This document shows positions 56,457 to 59,314 of a stretch of 64,000 nucleotides of DNA, piece by piece. The stretch is from Ilumatobacter sp. GTDB lineage: Bacteria; Actinomycetota; Acidimicrobiia; Acidimicrobiales; Ilumatobacteraceae. Made by a program: the position numbers and the translations under genes. The stretch is from assembly GCA_007693335.1 (NCBI GenBank), contig REDU01000085.1, forward strand, positions 1 to 64,000. Direction: 5' to 3'. The notes beneath the pieces are model-generated. The model did no database searches and had not been told where the DNA came from. It was given only the letters and a program-made list of their open reading frames with translations. The stretch's first letter is position 1. Each line of letters begins with the position of its first letter.

Positions 56457-56521
56457 GCACCCCTGGTGCGCCATGGGCAACGGCATCGCTTCGGCCAGTG
56501 CGCTGATCTGGCTTCACCGAG

Positions 56522-56594
56522 TGGGCGATACGGGCCTCGATCCCATGACCTCCACGGTGTGAACGTGGCGCTCTTCCAACTGAGCTAATCGCCC
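56522..56594 (-). tRNA. tRNA-Val(CAC)
   Basis: The minus strand gives acceptor GGGCGAT paired to ATCGCCC, D-arm GCTC/GAGC, anticodon stem CCACG/CGTGG around TTCACAC (CAC), discriminator A and no encoded CCA. The T-loop reads ATCGAGG instead of TTCGAGG, so position 54 is A, which is off consensus. The D-loop is short. Confidence 0.9.
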
Positions 56595-57703: not shown

Positions 57704-58357
57704 TCAGCCGGCAGAGGATGTGGCGGGCGCGGCGGGTGTGGGCGGGAGCACGCAGGCGATGCCGAGCCCGAGCCGGTCACGGTGCGGCGAGGTACCGCCC
57801 GGACATCTCGATTCGAGCGGGATCAGACGGTCGACCACCAGATCTCCAGCTCCCTCGCAGCGGACCTCGCGCACATCGGTGTTGGGGAGGATCTCCACAC
57901 AGGAACCCGACCGGATGACGCCGTCGGGCTCGCGTTCGGTGGGTCCGTCGATCAGAGCGGCACCGAGCAGCACCGAGCCGATGCCGATGGTGGCGAGCAC
58001 CGCCAGGAACCTCCACGGGACGCGGGCGGGCTCCAGCGTCGGTGCGTCGTAGTTGTAGGTGGTGCGACGGATGGTCGCGATCAGGTCGTCGTCGTCCGTC
58101 GTGGCGGATCGGCCCGCCGGCGCCGCCGACCCGGTGGCGCTGCTCGGGCCGCCACCGTCGAGCGTCCGGTCGTACACGGCCCGCCGACCGGGATCACCCA
58201 GTACCCGGTACGCCTCGTTCAGCGCCGCCATCTCGGAGGCCGAACCCGTGGCGACCCGATCAGGGTGCACGATGCGAGCGCGCTCACGGTAGGCGTTGCG
58301 GATCCGGGCGGCGTCGGCGCGCCGGTCGATCCCGAGGACGTCGTAGTGGGAGCGGAT
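57704..58357 (-). CDS. membrane-anchored J-domain protein with no usual start codon
   Basis: The frame encodes a complete J domain: SHYDVLGIDRRADAARIRNA, then RERARIVHPDRV with the His-Pro-Asp motif, and LNEAYRVLGDPGRRAVYDR. A linker, one membrane helix (FLAVLATIGIGSVLLGAALI) and an outer domain with four Cys (GSCVEI, REVRCEGAG, SRCPGG, IACVL) resembling LppU-type domains follow. Between the TGA at 58382-58384 and the first GTG (58270) there is no ATG, GTG or TTG, and that GTG would cut the J domain in half. ATC at 58357 gives the family's normal N-terminus and is my provisional start. J domains stimulate DnaK ATPase. Confidence 0.65.
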   Translation of the reverse strand: MRSHYDVLGIDRRADAARIRNAYRERARIVHPDRVATGSASEMAALNEAYRVLGDPGRRAVYDRTLDGGGPSSATGSAAPAGRSATTDDDDLIATIRRTTYNYDAPTLEPARVPWRFLAVLATIGIGSVLLGAALIDGPTEREPDGVIRSGSCVEILPNTDVREVRCEGAGDLVVDRLIPLESRCPGGTSPHRDRLGLGIACVLPPTPAAPATSSAG

Positions 58358-58381
58358 ACCAGCGATGCTACGGCGGTCGGC

Positions 58382-59314
58382 TCAGTACCCGGCGTCCACG
58401 TCGACCGGTCCGATGAGGGGCTCACCGGCACCGAACCGGCGTACGTTCTCGGCGACCCGGGCAGCCAGCAACGGCACCGCCATCTCGGGTGTGTTGCCGA
58501 CATGCGGGGTGATCAGGCAGTTCTCGAGCGTCCACAGTCGGTGATCGGCCGGCAGCGGCTCGGGATCGGTCACGTCGAGGCCGGCGCCACCGATCACCCC
58601 GGACTCCAGGGCGGCCACGAGGTCATCGGTCACGATGTGGCGGCCCCGTGCCACGTTCACCAGCCAGGCGTGGGATTCCATCGTCGCCAGTTCAGCGGCG
58701 CCGATCATCGCCTCGGTGCCGGGCGTGAGCGGGAGGGCGAGCACCACCAGATCGGCGCCGGGGAGTGCCTCGCCGAAGCGATCGTCGGGCAGCACCCGAT
58801 CCACCCCGGTCATGTCCTGCACCTGGCGTCGGACGACGGTGATCGTGCAGTCCCACGGCTGCAGCAGTCGAACCAGCGACTCGGTGATGCCACCGCCGCC
58901 GAGGATGCTGACGCGTCCGCCGAGGAGGTTGTGGCCGCGCGGGCCCGTCCAGCGTCCCGCTCGTGCGTAGGCGCCGAGGCCGCGCAGCCCGGCCACGCCG
59001 AGCGCCAGCGCCATCTCGGCCACCGGCTCCGCGTACACACCCTTGCCGCACGTCCACAGGTGGTCGTGGTCGAGCAGGTGGACGAAGTTCTCGATGCCGG
59101 CGAACGGCAGTTGCACCCATCGGGCATCCCGCGCGGCGTCGAGTGCCTCGGCCAGCCGTTCGGGTGCCTTGGCATCGGCCCAGACGATCGCCTCGCACTC
59201 GGCCAACGGGACCAGCCGACCGCCGCCCCGCTCGATCGCATCGGCCAGCCACGGCACCCCGGCGTCGGGGCCGAGCGCAATGCGGGGGGAAGCTGACGCG
59301 GTGGCGGGTGACAT
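58382..59314 (-). CDS. D-2-hydroxyacid dehydrogenase family protein
   Basis: This 310-residue NAD(P)-dependent dehydrogenase has VQLPFAGIENFV in the substrate domain and the nucleotide loop GGRVSILGGGGITESL, whose Gly pattern is slightly unusual. Further motifs are VVLALPLTPGTEAMIG and LVNVARGRHIVTDDLVAALESG with the catalytic Arg. The Glu is in AGLDVTDPEPLP and the catalytic His is in LITPHVGNTPEMA. 2-Hydroxy acids or phosphoglycerate-like molecules are the family's substrates; which one is used here is unknown. Its TGA is directly in frame with the J-domain ORF downstream. It diverges from an Lrp/AsnC regulator gene (67-bp gap). Confidence 0.88.
   Translation of the reverse strand: MSPATASASPRIALGPDAGVPWLADAIERGGGRLVPLAECEAIVWADAKAPERLAEALDAARDARWVQLPFAGIENFVHLLDHDHLWTCGKGVYAEPVAEMALALGVAGLRGLGAYARAGRWTGPRGHNLLGGRVSILGGGGITESLVRLLQPWDCTITVVRRQVQDMTGVDRVLPDDRFGEALPGADLVVLALPLTPGTEAMIGAAELATMESHAWLVNVARGRHIVTDDLVAALESGVIGGAGLDVTDPEPLPADHRLWTLENCLITPHVGNTPEMAVPLLAARVAENVRRFGAGEPLIGPVDVDAGY

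Follow-up and report, generated by a model that had tools for sequence, protein, structure and literature searches.

How does translation begin on a gene that has no ATG, GTG or TTG where its start should lie? The question is raised by a membrane J-domain protein gene in a window of 64,000 nucleotides from Ilumatobacter sp. (contig REDU01000085.1, positions 1 to 64,000; family Ilumatobacteraceae). On the minus strand, a D-2-hydroxyacid dehydrogenase-like gene (58382-59314) runs from an ATG start to a TGA stop at 58384-58382; its product, of 310 amino acids, matches Pfam 2-Hacid_dh_C (E 1.2e-43). From 58381 onwards the frame of this TGA has no further stop until 57706-57704, and in this stretch the 37 codons between the TGA and the first GTG (58270-58268) are devoid of ATG, GTG and TTG. 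This arrangement had been described in an earlier reading made from the letters alone (hereafter the sequence-only reading), and we confirm it on the minus strand, with the J domain intact. The GTG, which is the first canonical start codon in frame, is the valine codon directly 5' of the His-Pro-Asp motif and thus lies inside the J domain; we rejected it as the start of the gene, as the first half of the domain would be lost. If sense coding frequencies are used, the chance that 37 codons here lack all three canonical starts is about 0.09, and with any-frame frequencies it rises to about 0.20; because this probability is of the order of 0.1-0.2, the gap in a single genome is only suggestive. 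It becomes significant because it is conserved in relatives.

The candidate that emerges from the comparisons below is an ATC at 58355-58357, minus strand, which has no canonical start in its frame, is conserved in relatives and is predicted to form the 5' end of the mRNA. The coding sequence would then occupy 57704-58357 on the same strand (217 amino acids plus stop). A second ATC further upstream (58366-58364) is not conserved.

The product is best explained, from its sequence features, as a membrane-anchored DnaK co-chaperone with a cytosolic J domain, one transmembrane helix and an outer domain with four cysteines. The J domain (58169-58348, minus strand; residues 1-70, Pfam PF00226) is matched with E 1.1e-15 and 57.9 bits against a cut-off of 27.8, its HPD motif lies at 58259-58267, and H31, P32 and D33 are invariant in an alignment of 81 homologues. 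An AlphaFold model contains the J-domain helices, and J domains are matched in the PDB. This is not a full-length DnaJ: TIGR02349 scores 56.6 bits against a cut-off of 377.2, the match being to the J domain only. A hydrophobic stretch at residues 115-135 (57953-58015, minus strand), helical in the model, is the predicted transmembrane helix, and it is followed by a small beta domain (57734-57925, minus strand; approximately residues 145-208) with confidently modelled strands, in which C153, C167, C185 and C202 are invariant across the 81 homologues. The suggestion that this outer domain is LppU-like finds no backing, nor does a septum-formation domain, since residues 140-217 match no Pfam family at E up to 10; J domains took up the results of PDB searches by sequence and by fold. 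A J domain together with a transmembrane helix is also known from membrane-anchored bacterial proteins such as DjlA. In the present protein, unlike DjlA, the J domain is N-terminal, followed by the helix and then by the four-cysteine outer domain, which has no Pfam match.

Is the missing start a peculiarity of this genome? Protein searches recovered homologues throughout the family of the window; across the order, 397 genomes were sampled and 119 gave a homologue. The nearest named relative is an Ilumatobacteraceae MAG with 68% identity. For 111 homologues from the family and 15 from outside it we classified the region around the start, counting codon positions from the first tyrosine of the J domain and scoring a locus as lacking a canonical start when no ATG, GTG or TTG occurs within 12 codons before the domain. 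Among the family homologues, 70 have a canonical start, 37 have none and four combine an ATC at leaderless spacing with a nearby canonical codon, these counts being of related sequences and not of independent events. Since 70 of the 111 have a canonical start, the non-canonical one is dispensable. The 37 loci divide into 28 with ATC, at codon -4 in 25 cases and displaced to -7 or -8 in three, and nine with ATT at -4, all from genus g4. ATC is kept in every homologue of g20 (8/8), g22 (7/7) and g1 (2/2), and in the single homologue of g25. When two loci from other families are included, 23 of 39 loci without a canonical start have an in-frame stop no more than 13 codons before the J domain, so that the frame is closed just upstream of the ATC in many relatives. 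On a tree of 122 rows, the two start classes require 12 changes, a figure that does not separate gain from loss. Pairwise dN/dS between relatives is about 0.05-0.3, showing that the J protein is under purifying selection.

These comparisons decide between the three options that the sequence-only reading had offered, namely an ATC start, readthrough of the dehydrogenase TGA and a wrong base in the assembly. Taken together, the shared position of the codon and the closed frames strongly support initiation at the ATC at 58357. Readthrough would yield a dehydrogenase-J fusion, and in the window the two reading frames are indeed the same. However, the dehydrogenase of L024, L031, L032, L082 and L166, all of them relatives without a canonical start, is out of frame with the J gene. 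In many relatives it has a different frame, lies hundreds of bases off or could not be located, and further in-frame stops intervene (for instance a TAA or TAG at codon -8, within the -10 box discussed below). We therefore reject readthrough as highly improbable. The third option, that a sequencing or assembly error has destroyed a normal start, might draw on the fact that the genome of the window is a draft of 162 contigs. Most of the compared genomes are likewise drafts, but the same codon occupies the same place in many separately assembled genomes, including the single-contig G020 and G038, and with so many independent genomes in agreement an error here is barely conceivable and is likewise rejected.

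What, then, brings the ribosome to this ATC? Seven nucleotides before it lies TAGCAT (58365-58370, minus strand), a predicted -10 box of the form TANNNT, placed as in a leaderless promoter. Outside g4, 26 loci of the family lack a canonical start, and every one of them has a TANNNT 6-8 nt before the ATC, although the box played no part in defining this class. Often it is the TAA or TAG of the box that supplies the upstream in-frame stop. A count of 32 out of 32 loci, which we also obtained, is circular, its rows having been selected by the box, and 26/26 is the fair figure. At such spacing, TANNNT precedes fewer than 1% of other codons near gene starts (G038 counts), and a spacing of 6-8 nt is the one at which leaderless ATG and GTG starts concentrate in both G038 and the genome of the window; the placement of the box before the ATC is thus that of leaderless genes. 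In L025 the spacer is 6 nt, against 7 nt in its close relative L027, and therefore the DNA upstream of the ATC is not in-frame coding sequence. An upstream alignment whose rows were chosen by the -10 box revealed no -35 consensus, and positions other than the box are poorly conserved in it. Leaderless J homologues in the family start with ATC in 30 cases, with GTG in eight and with ATG in none. The evidence supports a predicted leaderless transcript, and for an ATC start on a leaderless mRNA, the two taken together, we would put the probability at roughly 0.78.

A different reading retains the ATC start and has a longer dehydrogenase-J transcript as the main mRNA, with the ribosome re-initiating at the ATC through translational coupling and the -10 box playing a minor part. 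The gene order would allow this, in that most family relatives with an examined flank have the dehydrogenase immediately before the J gene, and in the window its stop is 24 nt before the ATC. Against this, among loci without a canonical start the dehydrogenase ends between 29 and 612 nt before the J-domain tyrosine, and in the flanks examined it was not found for any of the non-canonical g4 loci or for most of g20. Moreover, the best conditions for coupling are found in g26, whose two genes overlap, and there the start is ATG, GTG or TTG. We regard coupling as quite unlikely.

A leaderless ATC might also reflect a general habit of the lineage. We examined 400 kb of G038 (380 predicted genes) and 310 kb of the genome of the window, G000 (270 genes), and no lineage-wide use of leaderless ATC starts was seen in these two samples. 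Starts located 6-7 nt from a -10 box comprise 34 ATG, 16 GTG, no TTG and one ATC in G038, and 27 ATG, 18 GTG and one ATC in G000; in each sample the lone ATC belongs to the J gene. Across these approximately 650 genes it is the only leaderless ATC gene without a usable canonical start. We also scanned for genes with a coding signal extending well upstream of their first canonical start; each sample yielded several candidates, of which the convincing ones were the J gene and, in the genome of the window, infC with ATA. The remaining candidates, two with CTG apart, we judged collectively to be antisense or mis-set frames. The infC start is ATA in all 25 readable family loci (L093 from the genome of the window and 24 others), and therefore AUH starts are used in this lineage, though apparently rarely. 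Both CTG candidates form a CTGA overlap with the stop of the preceding gene: in the genome of the window, an rRNA-methyltransferase-like ORF behind an rplT-like gene has an apparent CTG start at L224:8558-8560 (minus strand) and no ATG, GTG or TTG before its conserved-looking part, and in G038 a PIN/VapC-like ORF has an apparent CTG start at L137:7291-7293.

Genus g4 departs from this pattern. Its nine ATT loci (L066, L068, L069, L073, L075, L188, L189, L198 and L200) include several in which the ATT is preceded by an SD-like GGTGA, and in the g4 flanks examined the dehydrogenase was found upstream only in one member with a canonical start. By the look of these sequences, g4 has another mode of initiation, with the non-canonical start kept. 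Two further g4 rows, L186 and L190, were scored as canonical but also have an ATC or ATT at -4, and they probably belong with the non-canonical g4 loci.

Weak start codons recur at this place in other families of the order. A leaderless ATC is present in L166 (f13) and L348 (f44), each with a TGA two codons before it, and L328 (f27) has a probable ATC start. In f18 and four f40 genomes the leaderless codon is ACG, while in f3 (L318, L320) and f53 (L347, L360) an ACG stands behind a purine-rich, SD-like sequence. Two f3 loci, L170 and L317, are ambiguous between ATC and ACG; in L170 (genome G400) the candidate starts are a leaderless ATC at -12 and an ACG at -4 behind AGGAGG.

The finding is therefore stronger than the sequence-only reading supposed, and for another reason. 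That reading had recognised neither the leaderless promoter nor the conservation, nor the variants with AUU and ACG; what makes the case is a conserved non-canonical, probably leaderless start, which is real.

Why would a poor start codon be kept? One answer is that it is neutral, the gene having drifted to a poor start codon (ATC, ATT or ACG) that it tolerates, and the interchange of canonical and non-canonical starts on the tree, in 12 changes, fits such drift. Against this, ATC is retained by all eight g20 and all seven g22 homologues, although in the pairs measured their synonymous sites have diverged by about 0.7 per site or more, and beyond infC and the two CTG candidates no convincing gene without a canonical start was found among the approximately 650 sampled. 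In addition, other families have different weak codons at this place, and because the codon varies in this way, selection would be on weakness and not on a particular codon. Neutrality thus seems unlikely, and the sequence comparisons support selection for a non-canonical codon, which probably keeps translation of the J gene weak or controlled.

Our proposed mechanism is that a promoter just behind the dehydrogenase gene would give an mRNA with AUC as its first codon, at which translation would start, and that selection would retain the non-canonical codon for the weak initiation it gives. On the analogy of infC and sigR the start is probably sensitive to IF3, in which case output of the co-chaperone would be low, or would rise when the stringency of initiation falls. 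Reported IF3 effects on leaderless mRNAs (PMC9031893) fit the proposed sensitivity, which we infer by that analogy, as we do the physiological purpose of such control. Taken by itself, selection on weakness or IF3 control strikes us as somewhat probable. The fullest version, in which a membrane co-chaperone gene is wired across the order to the fidelity of initiation through AUC or ACG at the 5' end of its mRNA, by a leaderless route outside the AUG/GUG-only rule, with the amount of J protein reporting IF3 activity or the free 70S pool, is tentative and on balance doubtful.

The main tension is with Mycobacterium smegmatis, where leaderless mRNAs initiate only at ATG or GTG and ATC served as a presumed non-initiating control; with a Shine-Dalgarno sequence, ATC was slightly above background and ATT robust (PMC4633059). 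This is the systematic test that we found, and the ATC of the window, like the ATC or ACG of its relatives, conflicts with its AUG/GUG rule. The discrepancy could mean that these bacteria differ from M. smegmatis, that very little initiation is enough, or that the main transcript is longer.

The J gene shares features with three known systems. As with infC, which has an AUU, AUC or AUA start, an AUH start is conserved over a lineage, the family's own infC having ATA; infC differs in being autoregulated by its own product and in having a purine-rich stretch before the start, whereas the present product is a membrane J-protein and its mRNA is probably leaderless. To our knowledge, conserved starts other than AUG, GUG and UUG have been characterised in very few bacterial genes, and we know of IF3-sensitive starts mainly from infC and sigR. 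The J gene resembles this class in that it lacks a usable canonical start and conserves a non-canonical codon in that place. In Streptomyces sigR, a GTC start is likewise conserved in an actinobacterial lineage and misplaced by gene finders; it is repressed by IF3, and the stress response is deregulated when ATG, GTG or TTG is put in its place (PMC5472188). Gene and codon differ from ours, leaderless mRNA is not mentioned in the main text of that report, and the J gene has ATC, ATT and ACG at the same place in different relatives. Mycobacterial and corynebacterial leaderless genes share a -10 box a few nucleotides before the start codon, but start with ATG or GTG (PMC4633059, PMC4847777).

We found no report of leaderless AUC starts, or of ACG starts of any kind, in bacteria in the open-access literature. 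The present case would add a chaperone gene to the conserved non-canonical starts, apparently on leaderless mRNAs, and it is one that gene finders limited to ATG, GTG and TTG would miss or would cut at the HPD motif. With a one-base change in a reporter, it also allows a test of which genes are under IF3 control.

As regards the decoding of AUC, the complete genome G038 has 46 tRNA matches, and no dedicated AUC initiator tRNA was seen in it. The ARAGORN calls include three tRNA-Met(CAT) and one clear tRNA-Ile(GAT), a second GAT call overlapping a tRNA-Gly on the opposite strand. Downstream of the J gene, the window (56521-56594) and G038 (C1:1557158-1557231) each have a tRNA-Val(CAC) gene.
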